This document shows, piece after piece, positions 1 through 5,074 of a DNA stretch of 5,074 nt. This DNA comes from Verrucomicrobiota bacterium (GTDB taxonomy: Bacteria; Verrucomicrobiota; Verrucomicrobiae; Chthoniobacterales; UBA10450): positions 1 through 5,074 of the forward strand of contig QHOZ01000044.1 of NCBI GenBank assembly GCA_003219495.1, written 5' to 3'. The position numbers and the translations under genes were made by a program. The notes beneath the pieces are model-generated. The model searched no databases, was not told the origin of the DNA, and worked only from the letters and a program-made list of their open reading frames with translations. The stretch's first letter is position 1; the number at the start of each line of letters is the position of its first letter.

Positions 1-302
1 CCAGAGCCCCCGGTTGCCACGCTCCAAAGAATGATGGCGGTGCCAATGATTATCCACCGCGAAAACCGGTCGGCAAGAAATCCGAGAAGGGGCGCTGAAA
101 TCATGTAGGTCAGCAAAAACGCCGACCCGAGAAACCCTGTGTCTCTCATTGCATTGGGGTCGCCGGGCGCGAAGAACGTCGCCCGAATCCACGGCTCGAC
201 CGCAGCCCGGACTTGCCGATCGATGTAGTTAAAAAGATTGATCGCCAGCAACAGCGCGAGTGCAGAGCGGCCGCCGGGAACGAGACGGTCTTTGGTTTCC
301 AT
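1..302 (-). CDS. Major Facilitator Superfamily transporter, Spinster-like, N-terminal part (runs off the left edge)
   Basis: This is the start of a secondary transporter of the inner membrane. One hundred codons are visible and the rest lies outside the window. A short polar N-terminus (METKDRLVPG) is followed by a first membrane helix at about residues 13-28 ending in NYIDR (25-29). A second helix spans about 57-76 with TYMISAP (65-71), then the MFS motif-A loop GFLADRFSR (74-82), and a third helix spans about 83-98. NYxDR, the YM..AP helix and the G-L-DR loop match what I recall of the Spinster family (animal SPNS1/SPNS2, bacterial Spns); the Asp-Arg pair in helix 1 is implicated in proton coupling there. 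Substrate cannot be read from this fragment. Spinster proteins carry lysophospholipids or sphingosine-1-phosphate in animals, which fits the lipid enzymes transcribed divergently. The ATG at 302-300 is chosen because it precedes a normal MFS N-terminus. No Shine-Dalgarno is visible, and the frame stays open upstream, including a TTG two codons before. MFS membership is secure; the Spinster call is moderately secure. Confidence 0.85.
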   Translation of the reverse strand, partial: METKDRLVPGGRSALALLLAINLFNYIDRQVRAAVEPWIRATFFAPGDPNAMRDTGFLGSAFLLTYMISAPLLGFLADRFSRWIIIGTAIILWSVATGGS

Positions 303-303
303 C

Positions 304-320
304 GCCAATTGTCGATTGGC
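304..320. repeat. Inverted repeat, 6-bp arms with 5-bp spacer, just before the transporter start
   Basis: GCCAAT (304-309) and ATTGGC (315-320) are perfect inverted copies separated by five bases. The repeat lies immediately upstream of the minus-strand ATG at 302. It overlaps the expected transcript start of the candidate promoter at 320-348. It could be a repressor operator or a small hairpin over the translation start. The arms are short, so chance cannot be excluded. Confidence 0.3.
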
Positions 321-348
321 AGATAGATGCCCGCGGGCTACTTGTAAA
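320..348 (-). promoter_or_regulatory. Possible sigma70-type promoter for the transporter gene
   Basis: Read on the minus strand, TTTACA (plus 348-343; five of six matches to TTGACA) is followed after exactly 17 bases by TATCTG (plus 325-320; three of six matches to TATAAT). The spacing is ideal but the -10 is weak. Transcription would begin near 313, leaving a leader of only about ten bases before the ATG at 302, inside the 304-320 dyad. No comparable -35/-10 pair was found for the plus-strand gene starting at 358: TTGGCA at 316-321 has no convincing -10 partner. Confidence 0.25.
329..338. repeat. 10-bp perfect palindrome GCCCGCGGGC in the divergent intergenic region
   Basis: The ten bases read the same on both strands and sit near the centre of the 55-bp gap between two divergent start codons. 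They fall inside the spacer of the candidate minus-strand promoter. A symmetric site there could bind a dimeric regulator controlling both directions. In GC-rich DNA such a palindrome is also fairly common by chance. Confidence 0.25.
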
Positions 349-357
349 CCATAAACG

Positions 358-2562
358 ATGCCTGACATGTCCGCCGGTGAGCGCGTGCTCAATTTTTTTG
401 CCCGGCCGCTCGTCCGTATCTTCTACCGAGTCCGCGCTTTAGGACTGGAGCAACTGCCGGAGGGCGGTTTTCTCCTTTTACCAAATCACATCACATGGGT
501 CGACGCGCTTGTTCTCCAACTCGCCTCCCCGCGGCCGATTCGTTACATCATCGATCAGGAATTTTATCACAAGCTGGCACTGAAACCTTTTCTGCGCGCG
601 GTTGGCTGTATTCCAATTGATTCGCGCAAGGCGCGATCCGCGATTCGCGCTGCGACCGAGCAAATCGCGGCCGGCGAAATCGTTTGTCTGTTTCCCGAAG
701 GACAGCTGACGCGATCCGGAACGCTTCTGCGTCTGCGGCGCGGTTACGAGCTCATCGCGCAACACGCGAACGCGAAAGTTGTCCCCGTTTGGCTCGATCG
801 ACTGTGGGGGTCGATCTTTTCCTTCCAGGGCGGGAAATTTTTCGCGAAATGGCCGAAAGAAATTCCGTATCGCGTTACGGTCGCATTCGGAAAGCCGATT
901 AAGCCGAATGCGGCCGACATCGCGACGGTGCGGGAAGAACTTCTCAAGCTTGGCGAATATTGTTACAGCCGCCGGCCGGCATTAGATCGACATCTTGCGG
1001 AAGTTTGCGTGCGCGGATTGAAACGGCGACGCTTCAGCACCGCCGTCATCGACGGAATGGACCACAGCAAATTGGGACGCGCGAAGTTGCTCGGCGCCGC
1101 GGCCGCATTCAGTCGTTTCTTGCGAAAGGAATTTCCCGATCCGCGGATCGCGATCGTGTTGCCGGCAAGCAAAGGTTCGATGCTGGCAAACCTCGCGGTC
1201 ACGCTCGCCGGCAAAGTTCCCGTTGATTTGAATTTCACGATGGGCCGCGCCGCAAACGAGTTCTGCTGTCAACGCGCGGAATTGCAGGTCGCGATTTCGG
1301 CGGCCGCATTCATGGGGCGGGTAAAAGATTTTCCCTGGCCAGAACGGGTCCTGAAACTGGAGGAATTGCTTCCGCAGCTAAAACCGAGAATTCTTTTTTG
1401 GTGGATGCTGGCGATCTTTTGTCCGACGCCGCTCTTGCTACGGCTTCTTCAAGTTCCAAAAAAAGGCGGGCACGCGGAGGCGAGTTTGCTTTTCACTAGT
1501 GGCAGCACGGGCGATCCAAAAGGCGTGGTGCTAATCCATCGCAACATCGTCGGAAACGTTTCCCAGTTTCGCGAGCTGCTCGACGCCACGCGCAATGACG
1601 CGATCCTCGCCTCGCTCCCCTTTTTCCACAGCTTCGGTGCGACTGTCACACTTTGGTATCCGTTGATCGAAGGCGTGCGCATTGTCACTTATCCCACGCC
1701 GCTCGAAGTCGCGTCGAATGCGGCCCTGATCGAGAAATACAAACTCACGCTCCTGCTCGCGACGCCGACATTTCTGCGCGGCTATTTGCGCAAAGCTCAG
1801 CCGGAACAATTGCGTTCGCTCCGCCTCATCATTACCGGCGCCGAAAAATTGCCGGTCGATCTCGCGAAAACTTTCGAGGAGCGATTCAACCAGCGCGTGT
1901 TTGAAGGTTACGGCCTTACCGAGACTTCGCCCGTCGTCAGCGTGAATCTGCCCGATCCGAAGCCGCGGCGTCCGGGCGAAGAAGTTCAACCCTCGAGTCG
2001 CTTAGGCTCGGTCGGCAAAATGGCTCCCGGAATCGCGGCCGAGATTCGCGAACCGGAAACCGACGCCAAACTTTCGCTTCATGAAACGGGAATGGTTTGG
2101 TTCCGCGGCGTCAATATTTTCGAAGGTTACCTTGGCGACGAAACGCGCACCGCTGAAGTTTTGCGCGACGGCTGGCTGAAAACCGGGGACATCGGGCGCT
2201 TCGACGAAGACGGATTTCTTTACATCGAAGGCCGTTTGTCGCGGTTCTCGAAAATTGGCGGTGAAATGGTGCCGCACGAAGCGATTGAACAAAAGATCAT
2301 CGATGTTCTCGGTCTGGCCGGCCGCGACGAACGCGTAATGGCAATCATGGGCGTGCAAGACCAAGCCAAAGGCGAAGCGCTCGTTCTTCTCACCGCGGTC
2401 GATGTCGATCTTGCGCAATTGCGCGACAAGCTCCGCGAAGCCGGCGTTCCGAATTTGTGGATCCCGAAAAAGATTTCCCGCATAGACGCAATTCCGGTCC
2501 TCGCCTCCGGCAAACTTGATCTCCGGAAATGCCAGGAAGTCGCGGCCCAATGCAAAGAATGA
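358..2562 (+). CDS. aas: Aas-like bifunctional protein: lysophospholipid acyltransferase (PlsC) plus acyl-ACP/acyl-CoA ligase
   Basis: This enzyme likely activates a fatty acid with ATP and transfers the acyl chain to a lysophospholipid at the inner face of the membrane, as E. coli Aas does (about 719 residues; 734 here). The PlsC/LPLAT domain fills roughly residues 10-185. It has the catalytic H44-x4-D49 motif (NHITWVD), GCIPID (83-88), FPEG (112-115) and the VPVW strand (142-145). The AMP-forming ligase spans about 225-734. It shows the P-loop TSGSTGDPKG (380-389), FFHSFG (422-427), YGLTET (518-523), KTGD (608-611), IEGR (623-626), KIGGE (632-636) and the C-terminal catalytic lysine in SGKLD (K719). 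All key residues appear intact. A hydrophobic stretch at 345-366 precedes the P-loop; E. coli Aas is also hydrophobic there. No MFS domain is fused at the N-terminus, unlike LplT-Aas fusions in some bacteria. ATG 358 is chosen (ATG 367 is possible); neither has a clear Shine-Dalgarno. It is translationally joined to the next gene. The symbol is by homology; acyl-donor specificity (ACP or CoA) is not readable. Confidence 0.9.
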   Translation: MPDMSAGERVLNFFARPLVRIFYRVRALGLEQLPEGGFLLLPNHITWVDALVLQLASPRPIRYIIDQEFYHKLALKPFLRAVGCIPIDSRKARSAIRAATEQIAAGEIVCLFPEGQLTRSGTLLRLRRGYELIAQHANAKVVPVWLDRLWGSIFSFQGGKFFAKWPKEIPYRVTVAFGKPIKPNAADIATVREELLKLGEYCYSRRPALDRHLAEVCVRGLKRRRFSTAVIDGMDHSKLGRAKLLGAAAAFSRFLRKEFPDPRIAIVLPASKGSMLANLAVTLAGKVPVDLNFTMGRAANEFCCQRAELQVAISAAAFMGRVKDFPWPERVLKLEELLPQLKPRILFWWMLAIFCPTPLLLRLLQVPKKGGHAEASLLFTSGSTGDPKGVVLIHRNIVGNVSQFRELLDATRNDAILASLPFFHSFGATVTLWYPLIEGVRIVTYPTPLEVASNAALIEKYKLTLLLATPTFLRGYLRKAQPEQLRSLRLIITGAEKLPVDLAKTFEERFNQRVFEGYGLTETSPVVSVNLPDPKPRRPGEEVQPSSRLGSVGKMAPGIAAEIREPETDAKLSLHETGMVWFRGVNIFEGYLGDETRTAEVLRDGWLKTGDIGRFDEDGFLYIEGRLSRFSKIGGEMVPHEAIEQKIIDVLGLAGRDERVMAIMGVQDQAKGEALVLLTAVDVDLAQLRDKLREAGVPNLWIPKKISRIDAIPVLASGKLDLRKCQEVAAQCKE
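2534..2562 (+). promoter_or_regulatory. Translation re-initiation junction (AGGAAG and ATGA overlap)
   Basis: AGGAAG (2534-2539), inside the end of the Aas-like gene, is the best Shine-Dalgarno candidate nearby. It lies 10 bases before an ATG at 2550 and 19 before the ATG at 2559. The latter forms ATGA (2559-2562) with the upstream TGA stop, the classic arrangement for coupled translation. The downstream frame is also open from an ATG at 2529, but that start precedes the Shine-Dalgarno and would add a sequence unrelated to the acyltransferase fold. I prefer 2559, with 2550 as the main alternative. Confidence 0.5.
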
Positions 2563-4241
2563 ACGAGACATTCCATTCCATTTCGAACCGCGCGGCTTCG
2601 TTGTTCATGAAGTCCGTCTTCGGGTATTCCTCGCGCGTTCACGCGATTGGGCGCGAGAACGTCGAACGCGCAGGCGGCTTCCTTCTCGCTTCGAATCACA
2701 TCAGCCATTTCGATCCGCTCATCATTTCGTCAGTCGTGCGGCGAAAGATCGATTGGATGGCGATGGCTGAATTTTTTCCGATGCCAATCGTGGGACCATT
2801 TCTGCGCGCAGTAGACGCATTTCCGGCGGAACGCGATCACGCTGATCGGAAAACGATTCGCACTGCGATTGAGCGTTTGCGGAAAGGCCGGATCGTCGGC
2901 GTTTTCCCCGAAGGCGGTATTCGAGACGGCGCCCGCTCGCTACTTCAGGGTGCGCCATTACGCGCGGGCGCATCGACACTCGCGCACATCGCCGGAGTTC
3001 CGATCGTGCCGTGCGTGATTCTGGGCACCGATCGGCTTTACGCAAAAGGAAGCTGGCTGCCAATTCGGCGCACGCCAGTTTGGATTGGTTTCGGCAAAGC
3101 GATCTCAAATTTTCCCGAACTGGAAAAATCGGTTGCGCGCGAACGCATTGGAACTGAACTCACCGCCGCGTTTCAAAAAATTTACGCCGAACTGCGCGAG
3201 ACATTCGATCTCACGGCCGACGATCTGCCGCACCCGCCGCGCGAACGAATGAAACGAAAGTCTCCGCGGCAGCGACTGCATCGCGCACGCGCGAGCGTTA
3301 TCGACTTCGGGATGTGCGTCGCGATGAATCTTGTCCAATCCCGGCACCGCTTGAACGGAACGAGTGCGACGGACATGGAGCAGTACGTCGCCGACTGCGA
3401 GAAGATGACCGCGCACGAATATTACGCCGCGCCGGAAGATGCCGATCTTACGCGGGCGATTCGAGACGAGAACCTCACAACCATTTCCTGGCGCAGTCCA
3501 ATCGAAACTCCCTTTGCGCAGAACAACTCCGCGCGCGCGGATTTCTTTTGGTCGGAGCGCGGCAAAAGTGCGCCGACCGTGCTCATGTTGCATGCGTTGA
3601 TGTCGGCGAGCCACGTTGGTTATCGGCGCTGGGCCGCGCATTTCAACGAGCTCGGTTGGAACGCCTGCTTTGTGCATTTGCCGTATCATTACTCTCGCGT
3701 GCCGCCCGGTCATTGGAATGGCGAGCTCGCGATCACTGCAAATCTGATTCGCAACGCGGAAGGTTTGCGTCAGAGCGTGATGGAGGTTCGACAACTCATT
3801 GCTGCATTGCGCGAAAGCGGCGGTAACGAATTCGGAATTCTCGGAACAAGTTATGGCGGCTGGATCGGCGCCTTGCTCGCTATGGTCGAGCGCGATCTGC
3901 GCTTCGTCGCGTTAATGGCGCCCATCGTGAACGTCGAGCATGCGATCTGGGAAAATCCGGGAAGCGTATTCATGCGACGCGAGCTGCGCCGCGCGAAAAT
4001 CTCGCCTGAGCTCGTCGCCCGGCATTTTCATCTCAGCTCACCGTCACATAACGAGCCGCTCTGCGATCCGACGCGGATTCTTTTCGCGTCCGGCGATTTC
4101 GATTTGATCGCACGATCGGCAGATATTGAGGCCATCCATGAAAAATGGAGCGGCTCGGAATTGCTCCGCGTTCGCCAGGGACATTTCGGTTATCGCATGA
4201 TGCGGGAAACTGTCGCGCGCTTAAAAGAGCGCGGCCTTTAG
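2559..4241 (+). CDS. PlsC-type acyltransferase fused to an alpha/beta-hydrolase
   Basis: This 560-residue protein joins two opposing lipid activities. The N-terminal PlsC/LPLAT domain (about 10-215) shows catalytic H47-x4-D52 in SNHISHFD, FLRAV (81-85), FPEGG (116-120) and GVPIVP (146-151). This pattern is typical of 1-acylglycerol-3-phosphate acyltransferases. A basic linker follows (about 228-245, rich in Arg/Lys). The C-terminal alpha/beta-hydrolase (about 335-560) has LMLHALMS (342-349) as the oxyanion-hole strand, the nucleophile elbow GTSYGG (S431), an acid in SGDFD (D513 or D515) and the histidine in QGHFGY (H542), so a full Ser-Asp-His triad is present. The segment LPYHYSRVP (374-382) plus the elbow recalls the ABHD18 (DUF2048) family, a tentative match from memory. 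There is no signal peptide, so action at the cytoplasmic membrane face is expected. It follows the Aas-like gene with overlapping stop/start codons and is presumably in the same operon. The inferred role is deacylation and reacylation of phospholipid; the substrate is unknown. Domain calls are secure, the start less so (ATG 2550 or 2529 possible). Confidence 0.88.
   Translation: MNETFHSISNRAASLFMKSVFGYSSRVHAIGRENVERAGGFLLASNHISHFDPLIISSVVRRKIDWMAMAEFFPMPIVGPFLRAVDAFPAERDHADRKTIRTAIERLRKGRIVGVFPEGGIRDGARSLLQGAPLRAGASTLAHIAGVPIVPCVILGTDRLYAKGSWLPIRRTPVWIGFGKAISNFPELEKSVARERIGTELTAAFQKIYAELRETFDLTADDLPHPPRERMKRKSPRQRLHRARASVIDFGMCVAMNLVQSRHRLNGTSATDMEQYVADCEKMTAHEYYAAPEDADLTRAIRDENLTTISWRSPIETPFAQNNSARADFFWSERGKSAPTVLMLHALMSASHVGYRRWAAHFNELGWNACFVHLPYHYSRVPPGHWNGELAITANLIRNAEGLRQSVMEVRQLIAALRESGGNEFGILGTSYGGWIGALLAMVERDLRFVALMAPIVNVEHAIWENPGSVFMRRELRRAKISPELVARHFHLSSPSHNEPLCDPTRILFASGDFDLIARSADIEAIHEKWSGSELLRVRQGHFGYRMMRETVARLKERGL
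4238..4241. other. Overlapping convergent stop codons
   Basis: The plus-strand gene ends with TAG at 4239-4241 and the minus-strand gene ends with TAA read from 4240-4238, so the two coding regions overlap by four bases. There is no intergenic space, and I saw no stem-loop with a T-run at the junction. Any transcription terminator must therefore lie within the opposite gene, and the two transcripts probably overlap at their 3' ends. Confidence 0.85.
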
Positions 4242-5074
4242 CGCAAATGCTCGTAGCCGTGCCAGCGCAGCCGCCAAATGATCTCGCGCAACTGTTCGTT
4301 GTCGGCTGAGAACGCCGGCAGCCATTCGCCGACTTCTTCGCGGCGCCACCAACCTTTCTCGCCCAGCGGCGCAAAGCGATAATGACAAAGCCGCGCGCGA
4401 ACGAAGTGCGGCGGTTTATCCGGGAATGGATTGTTCGCGAGCAACGAGAGCGTGCCGGGATCGTTCTGCAAAAGTTTGGCGACAAAGTTGAATGTCCACG
4501 GGTATTCGCGCGGAGTCGCCATTGCCGCGAACCAAATCTGCCAATCGATGCGGGGCTGATACGGCGCGATAAATGGCGGCCGCCGCTCCGGATCGCCCGG
4601 TTTCGCGATGAATTCGTATTCTTTCCATTTCGTGTCGCCGGTGATCACGGCATCGTCGGTTCCTTCGAAAACAATCTCATCACGTTCGCGCCCAACCGAG
4701 CCGAACGCGCCGTACGTGTTCACGAGGTCGAGACGATTGAATGCTGTGTTCATCATTTGGCGGCGCGAAATCAAATTCATCACCGGCGCGACGCGCAAAT
4801 AGGCAATCAAGATCGACAACGCGAGCGCGACGGTGTTGTTGATTCTTGACGGTTCCGACTCCTGCGCCGCCTTTTCCGCGCGCGCGACGATTCGCTTTGG
4901 CAACACATGACGCAGCAGGGTGTCATCGAAGCAAGCGAGGAACGGAATGATGGTGAGATAATTCAGGAACGAGAGATTTCCGCTGAGGATGAGAAAAACC
5001 TGGAACAGCACGAGCAACGCGCCGGCGATGTGACGAGCCATTCGGGGCCCAAACGAAAACCACGGCACGACCAA
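4238..5074 (-). CDS. Lipase maturation factor (LMF1/LMF2-like) family protein, C-terminal part (5' end beyond the right edge)
   Basis: Only the last 278 residues are present; the first visible codon (TTG, at 5074-5072) is internal, since the family protein is much longer at its N-terminus. The family signatures are strong: SGNLSFLNYL (31-40) followed by ACFDD (47-51), NTYGAFGSV (119-127), WKEYEF (150-155), APYQPRIDWQIWFAA (170-184), LLANNPF (211-217) and WWRR (242-245). Membrane helices are likely near 14-48 and 81-100; the rest is a soluble domain. In vertebrates LMF1 is an endoplasmic-reticulum membrane protein needed for folding of secreted lipoprotein, hepatic and endothelial lipases. The bacterial members have no established role that I know of and would sit in the inner membrane. 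It is convergent with the hydrolase fusion and the two stop codons overlap, so they are separate transcription units. The C-terminus ends soon after the WWRR segment, seemingly shorter than in animal LMF1. Family assignment is very secure; function is unknown. Confidence 0.92.
   Translation of the reverse strand: MVVPWFSFGPRMARHIAGALLVLFQVFLILSGNLSFLNYLTIIPFLACFDDTLLRHVLPKRIVARAEKAAQESEPSRINNTVALALSILIAYLRVAPVMNLISRRQMMNTAFNRLDLVNTYGAFGSVGRERDEIVFEGTDDAVITGDTKWKEYEFIAKPGDPERRPPFIAPYQPRIDWQIWFAAMATPREYPWTFNFVAKLLQNDPGTLSLLANNPFPDKPPHFVRARLCHYRFAPLGEKGWWRREEVGEWLPAFSADNEQLREIIWRLRWHGYEHLR

Follow-up and report, generated by a model that had tools for sequence, protein, structure and literature searches.

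A PlsC acyltransferase and an alpha/beta-hydrolase, paired or fused in Chthoniobacterales: a candidate acyl-chain editor of membrane phospholipids

Introduction

Deacylation and reacylation of phospholipids is an established process, and so is the repair of lysophospholipids in bacteria by the LplT-Aas system. In Escherichia coli, lysolipids that LplT has flipped inward are reacylated by Aas at the expense of acyl-ACP, and the available part of the source describes no hydrolase partner for these proteins (PMC11416262). In the ABHD18/Cld1 and tafazzin system, the two activities reside in separate mitochondrial proteins directed at cardiolipin; according to the accessible part of the report, ABHD18 deacylates cardiolipin stepwise and tafazzin reacylates it (PMC12173737). 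In the plant enzymes PES1 and PES2 and the algal PES, a single chain holds a putative alpha/beta-hydrolase region as well as an acyltransferase domain, and the products, made in the chloroplast, are phytyl esters and triacylglycerol (PMC12526585, in excerpt). Transport of lysolipids in eukaryotes involves SPNS1, a lysophospholipid transporter which, as stated in the excerpt of the source, exports lysosomal lysophosphatidylcholine for re-esterification (PMC10115416).

Two further groups of described proteins are relevant for comparison. The RcgR family (PMC9601222, in part) and the protein with the solved structure 4z8z are stand-alone proteins, and a second paper on RcgR (PMC13055273) does not mention a hydrolase or lipase. 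The PlsC of Thermotoga maritima (5kym) is a stand-alone lysophosphatidic acid (LPA) acyltransferase without a hydrolase. A narrow and partial literature search returned no bacterial hydrolase in a fixed partnership with a PlsC of its own, and no published biochemistry was found for any close homologue of the protein described here.

Results

A PlsC domain and an alpha/beta-hydrolase domain in one chain

The window, which is the whole stretch of 5,074 nucleotides that was analysed, contains at 2559-4241 a gene whose product is a 560-residue protein with a PlsC acyltransferase and an alpha/beta-hydrolase in one chain (Table 1). A preliminary description had proposed this fusion, and it was confirmed by the homologous loci. 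When a single genome of each species was scanned, 28 loci encoding a relative emerged, all of them titled Verrucomicrobia, Chthoniobacterales or Spartobacteria. With domain profiles built from alignment A1 (21 sequences), both domains were located in one open frame in 21 of the 28 loci, including two with an incomplete hydrolase (L016 and L020). Four loci carried both domains in two frames, one had two frames cut by the contig end, and two were fragments at contig ends. In a protein search, 2155 proteins matched at E 0.001 or better, and each of the best 120 contains PF01553 and aligns with 88-100% of the query. Two further homologue searches were considered through the best 120 of 1486 and the best 120 of 1485 matches.

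Table 1. Features of the window, with positions counted from its first nucleotide
Feature	Position	Strand	Remark
Spinster-type MFS transporter, divergent	3..392	-	Start only (window edge); full-length relative in L001 matches human SPNS1, 1e-55
Aas-like protein, PlsC domain plus acyl-ACP synthetase	358..2562	+	734 aa; NF006386 (PRK08633) 5.9e-242, model 414-1144
ATGA overlap, Aas-like gene/fusion gene	2559..2562	+	
PlsC-hydrolase fusion gene	2559..4241	+	560 codons plus stop; start backed by aligned homologues (A1)
PlsC acyltransferase domain	2559..3215	+	Residues 1-219 (Pfam core 27-154)
H47-x4-D52 acyltransferase motif	2697..2714	+	
FPEGG motif	2904..2918	+	Residues 116-120
Interdomain linker, variable	3231..3287	+	Alignment A1; gene boundary in split relatives (L025, L023, L024)
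Alpha/beta-hydrolase domain	3267..4238	+	Residues 237-560
HLPYHYSRVP motif	3675..3704	+	Residues 373-382
Ser431 nucleophile	3849..3851	+	Within GTSYGG
Asp515	4101..4103	+	Likely triad acid
His542 of the triad	4182..4184	+	
Lipase-maturation-factor homologue, convergent	4238..5074	-	Cut by window edge; PF25179 5e-46, PF06762 2.2e-12

The PlsC half of the protein exceeded the gathering cut-off of the Pfam family PF01553 (87.3 bits versus 23) and contains the HX4D and FPEG motifs of these acyltransferases; it stayed below the curated cut-off of the AGPAT model TIGR00530 (75.2 bits versus 102.95). The hydrolase half reached no curated family cut-off among the Pfam and NCBIfam profiles. Its best curated match was RcgR (NF047337, E 2.4e-20; 72.9 bits, cut-off 182), and this cut-off was passed in none of the 387 sampled Verrucomicrobiota genomes. 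Likewise, the match to ABHD18 (PF09752) remained below the gathering cut-off (17.5 bits versus 21) and spanned only positions 126-208 of the 351 in the profile. Nevertheless, PF09752 matched eight of the 15 members of the hydrolase alignment A2 at E 0.01, the best at 2.6e-7, and its cut-off was passed by three of ten stand-alone or split relatives, in alignments that span little of the model.

For structure prediction we relied on the model from alignment A4 (61 rows; mean pLDDT 79.7), since the shallow alignment A1 yielded a poor one (mean pLDDT 67). Both domains were predicted to fold as expected; the pTM of the A4 model was 0.59, at which the mutual placement of the two domains is unreliable. 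The nearest solved structure to the hydrolase half was 4z8z, an uncharacterised protein, and the next ranks were held by acetyl xylan esterases and acylaminoacyl peptidases, so that the fold does not indicate a lipid substrate. The predicted fold together with the conserved Ser-Asp-His residues places the hydrolase half in the alpha/beta-hydrolase superfamily, near RcgR, 4z8z and ABHD18.

Conservation was counted over 113 hydrolase and 106 PlsC domains from the fetched loci, with gaps set aside. Ser431 was kept in 113/113 hydrolase domains, and Asp515 and His542 each in 111/111. In the PlsC domains, His47 was retained in all 105 sequences compared and Asp52 in 102 of 105, the other three having Glu, and Glu118, Gly119 and Gly120 were kept in 106/106. 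The assertion of the preliminary description that the catalytic residues are intact thus held for H47, D52, FPEG, S431, D515 and H542. It did not hold for D513 as a triad acid, this position being Asp in only eight of 111 domains. Within the HLPYHYSRVP stretch, which may resemble part of ABHD18, His377 and Arg380 were invariant (113/113). PDB 4z8z has LPFHFNRKP at this position, with the equivalents of both residues present.

Among the loci whose linker was measured, the stretch between the two domains ranged in length from a few residues to about 50 (A1 columns about 245-300). A comparison of the linkers of L010, L005, L015 and L017 revealed that those of several homologues resemble translated dispersed repeats, and stretches like the L010 and L005 linkers were also found away from the fusion gene, near 10550 in L002 and near 12493 in L010.

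The conserved unit is a PlsC-hydrolase gene pair

Profile A2 for the hydrolase (E 1e-20) and profile A3 for PlsC were run on 213 Chthoniobacterales genomes. The hydrolase was found in 123 of them. All 128 hydrolase rows were then joined by position to PlsC rows down to 110.8 bits, rows at or below 103.7 bits being omitted as other acyltransferases. A dedicated PlsC was located directly upstream on the same strand in 114 of the 123 hydrolase-bearing genomes: in one frame with the hydrolase in 36, frame-broken in one (G542) and in separate frames in 77. The join rule itself gave 37 fused genomes by counting G542 (locus L021), in which the PlsC part lies in two frames; the 36 that were retained include a few whose hydrolase frame is incomplete or runs off a contig end (e.g. 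G555, G557 and G562). Among the nine hydrolase-bearing genomes without the pair, the hydrolase match starts at most 15 bases from the contig start in four (G435, G438, G497 and G550); in the other five, the position of the contig start does not account for the missing PlsC. Conversely, a strong PlsC match without a hydrolase match was present in four genomes (G433, G460, G505 and G564). In G409, two more matches to the A3 profile lie side by side (C61:386307-387586) on a contig other than that of the hydrolase.

An overlap of four bases between the stop codon of a gene and the start codon of the next is the usual signature of translational coupling. Such an overlap joined the PlsC and hydrolase genes in 61 of the 77 separate pairs in the fetched loci (52 ATGA, seven TTGA and two GTGA), and it was read directly in the four loci L025, L062, L023 and L024. 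The conserved unit is therefore wider than the fusion: it is a PlsC-hydrolase gene pair of the order. Eight hydrolase relatives from outside the order lacked such a PlsC neighbour. The A2 profile matched in 15 of the 387 sampled Verrucomicrobiota genomes, and hydrolase relatives occurred on 242 of 72,556 plasmid records, with 22.9-27.3% identity among the 12 listed; no annotated acyltransferase was present in the two plasmid regions with such relatives that were inspected. In locus L059, a stand-alone relative (2125-3123) directly precedes an MsbA-like ABC exporter gene (3124-5034), which is again a possible lipid setting; another long frame follows.

The fused genes belong to a single clade

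A maximum-likelihood tree was built from 113 hydrolase domains, two of the 115 sequences being omitted for having fewer than 200 residues (L016, fused, and L027, a fragment). All 28 fused rows fell in one group of 31 that also holds three split loci, L021, L023 and L024 (support 100/99), and the sister row of this group was the split pair L025 (100/99). The eight rows that come from genomes outside the order and have no PlsC beside them formed a separate group (100/97). L023 and L024 have the four-base overlap at the old boundary between PlsC and hydrolase, and L021 is frame-broken within PlsC. The tree requires four changes of the label 'fused', so within the fused group either one fusion followed by fission or more than one fusion is possible. 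As to origin, a translationally coupled gene pair would have become fused in one lineage.

An assembly artefact or a chance join is ruled out by the 21 one-frame loci among the 28, by the gene pairing and by the single fused clade. The preliminary description had raised the case of separate genes joined by an assembly error. Most Chthoniobacterales genomes that carry the two genes do have them apart, but the union seen here arose in evolution and not in assembly.

The fusion gene lies among putative lysolipid-handling genes

Directly upstream of the fusion gene, the window encodes an Aas-like protein in which an acyl-ACP synthetase domain stands beside a PlsC domain, as in the Aas of the LplT-Aas system. 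This protein is below the full-length cut-off of PRK08633, the N-terminal part of that model being missing, and its PlsC domain shares 34% identity with that of the fusion protein over 191 columns. More than 3 kb of upstream sequence was available for 17 of the 29 fused loci. Twelve of these 17 carry an Aas-like gene on the same strand no more than 2.5 kb upstream, as the window does, and in eight of the 12 it is at most 150 bases away; the other five lack it. In L007 and L010 the Aas-like gene is in broken frames. Among the split pairs, an Aas-like gene was detected for only three of 77 (L021, L023 and, at 5.3 kb, L025), all of the fused clade or its sister, where the upstream sequence read covered at least 2.9 kb in 57 of the 77 loci and in most only about 3 kb. 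In genome G474, which has a split pair, a PF01553 match (C3:687599-687946) lies in a frame of 1145 residues, about the full length of PRK08633.

The transporter gene at the window edge is not of the LplT type. The fragment matched the LplT model only at E 0.015, and the full-length copy in L001 is spinster-type, its closest solved structures being human SPNS1 and SPNS2. Fourteen fused loci have an Aas-like gene, and a spinster-type MFS gene was also found in 12 of them, each time on the opposite strand; by its homology and position this gene is a candidate for a bacterial lysolipid transporter. On the other side of the fusion gene, a lipase-maturation-factor homologue on the opposite strand followed in 26 of 29 fused loci, at a distance of a few bases to about 1.4 kb.

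The window thus shares with LplT-Aas a PlsC-type acyltransferase with acyl-ACP synthetase and an MFS transporter gene. What sets it apart is a further PlsC, attached to a hydrolase, and a transporter of the spinster type.

Other lipid genes in the host genomes

Each of ten genomes tested had two to six PF01553 matches, so that at least one acyltransferase exists besides the fusion-type PlsC in 10/10. The fusion-type PlsC is therefore unlikely to be the sole LPA acyltransferase of the cell. Phosphatidylserine decarboxylase was found in 11 of 12 fused-clade genomes and CDP-alcohol phosphotransferases in all 12.

A TIGR04265-like cardiolipin synthase (E 1e-10) was recognised in nine of 36 fused, 53 of 77 split and eight of nine unpaired genomes. 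At this threshold it was not recognised in 27 of the 36 fused genomes, which are incomplete and may have other routes to cardiolipin. The match was present in 70 of 122 hydrolase-bearing versus 69 of 91 other genomes, a negative association in a Fisher test that counts related genomes as independent (odds ratio 0.43, p 0.006). The cut-off of TIGR04265 itself was passed by only 67 of the 213 genomes; the comparison used the 36 fused and 122 hydrolase-bearing genomes, and G542 was not among the TIGR04265 matches listed. PLDc_2 matches in nine of ten genomes, including three of the four fused ones among them, indicate that other phospholipase-D-type enzymes exist.

Discussion

We propose, at a probability of about 0.5, that the PlsC-hydrolase protein is an acyl-chain editor of membrane glycerophospholipids with two active sites, one for deacylation and one for reacylation. 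The proposal draws on the two folds and their conserved residues, the pairing, the overlap, the fusion history and the neighbouring genes, from which we infer the reactions. The C-terminal serine hydrolase (Ser431-Asp515-His542) would take an acyl chain off a phospholipid, or a surplus one off a lysolipid, and the N-terminal PlsC (His47/Asp52) would place a new chain on a lysophospholipid, with acyl-ACP or acyl-CoA as the donor. The freed fatty acid could be charged again by the synthetase of the Aas-like protein, whose gene lies immediately upstream, and movement of lysolipids may fall to the spinster-type transporter. A deacylation-reacylation cycle suits a hydrolase that is tied to a PlsC and encoded next to an Aas-like enzyme and a homologue of lysolipid transporters. 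The further PF01553 matches in all ten genomes tested and the phosphatidylserine decarboxylase of 11 of 12 fused-clade genomes also count in favour of the editor. Points against it are that the hydrolase reaches no curated cut-off and has a fold that is not indicative of lipids, that an Aas-like neighbour accompanies so few of the split pairs and is missing even from five of the 17 fused loci with enough sequence, and that the eight relatives outside the order have no PlsC neighbour; conserved catalytic residues, moreover, are no proof of activity. The enzyme would presumably lie at the cytoplasmic face, with its two sites coupled, and in the fused clade phosphatidylethanolamine or phosphatidylglycerol is a more likely substrate than cardiolipin.

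The preliminary description had read the protein as a self-contained phospholipid remodelling enzyme. Remodelling has strong support from genomic context, in the near-constant pair, the overlap, the one fused clade and the Aas-like and spinster-type genes of that clade; that the enzyme would be self-contained is something we only infer. A stricter version, a bacterial Lands cycle in one chain in which lysophospholipid passes between the fused sites and the fatty acid is recharged by the Aas-like neighbour, is rather doubtful. If it were true, this would to our knowledge be the first bacterial enzyme that edits mature membrane phospholipids alone, and it would derive from a coupled gene pair that much of the order has retained. 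Eukaryotic ABHD5, to which the protein had been likened, is not the nearest comparison; ABHD18/Cld1 with tafazzin, LplT-Aas and the plant and algal phytyl ester synthases are better ones. In our best reading the protein would work like ABHD18/Cld1 and tafazzin, where a serine alpha/beta-hydrolase that deacylates a phospholipid likewise acts with a lysophospholipid acyltransferase (PMC12173737, in part).

That likeness suggests a more specific alternative, a cardiolipin-remodelling enzyme that unites a bacterial ABHD18/Cld1 with tafazzin. The PF09752 matches in A2, with three of ten relatives over the cut-off, and the division of labour between ABHD18 and tafazzin as given in the source excerpt (PMC12173737) are in its favour, and on the ABHD18 match alone it would come first. 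It ranks lower because the TIGR04265-like synthase was recognised in so few fused genomes and proved to have no positive association with the pair; this evidence is not decisive, for the reasons given with the counts, and the window protein itself stays below the ABHD18 cut-off. Judged from these profile matches, cardiolipin specificity of the fused enzyme is disfavoured, and we consider it very unlikely. Somewhat better placed, and still unlikely, is a lipid-ester synthase of the PES type, in which the hydrolase would draw an acyl group from a membrane lipid for transfer by the acyltransferase to a non-phospholipid acceptor such as an alcohol, diacylglycerol or an aminolipid, yielding a special lipid without editing. 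PES proteins offer a precedent for the domain combination, and a lyso-ornithine-lipid acyltransferase model weakly matched six of nine PlsC members. However, PES has its hydrolase region first and an acyltransferase of the DAGAT type (PF03982; PMC12526585, in excerpt), and this family was absent among the matches of the window protein at E 0.1, its acyltransferase domain being PF01553. Moreover, TIGR00530 and the PlsC part of PRK08633 far outscored the ornithine-lipid models on these domains, and the neighbouring Aas-like and spinster-type genes favour lysophospholipids.

Alpha/beta-hydrolases also include thioesterases, and the hydrolase could cleave acyl-ACP, acyl-CoA or wrong chains and so proofread the chain choice of PlsC. 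Such a donor editor would account for the fixed coupling with an acyltransferase, yet thioesterase families were absent from the Pfam and NCBIfam matches to the hydrolase at the thresholds used, and of the top 50 Foldseek matches just one, 2pbl at rank 31, has a title that names a putative thioesterase; we regard it as quite unlikely. Least probable to us is an esterase for a small signal or another non-lipid ester, as guessed for RcgR, a supposed quorum lactone hydrolase, with PlsC merely sharing the operon. It would agree with RcgR as the best curated match, far as this falls short of the cut-off, and with the plasmid relatives lacking an annotated acyltransferase in the regions inspected. 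Chance sharing of an operon hardly explains pairing in 114 of 123 genomes, the four-base overlap and the fusion, and in the available part of the RcgR report the role on a signal molecule is itself only proposed (PMC9601222).

The two-site editor of glycerophospholipids thus remains our preferred reading. As judged from their genomes, soil-dwelling Chthoniobacterales look to have an acyl-adding and a probably acyl-removing enzyme as one protein or as tightly coupled neighbouring genes. So far as our partial literature search shows, the bacterial PlsC-hydrolase pair and its fusion are new as a vehicle of deacylation and reacylation. If the proposal is true, a single purified protein and a pair of point mutants would allow acyl-chain editing of finished lipids to be tested, and comparing fused with split forms would amount to a natural experiment on whether fusion leads to channelling of the lysolipid. 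It would also suggest a function for the uncharacterised hydrolase family with the solved structure 4z8z.
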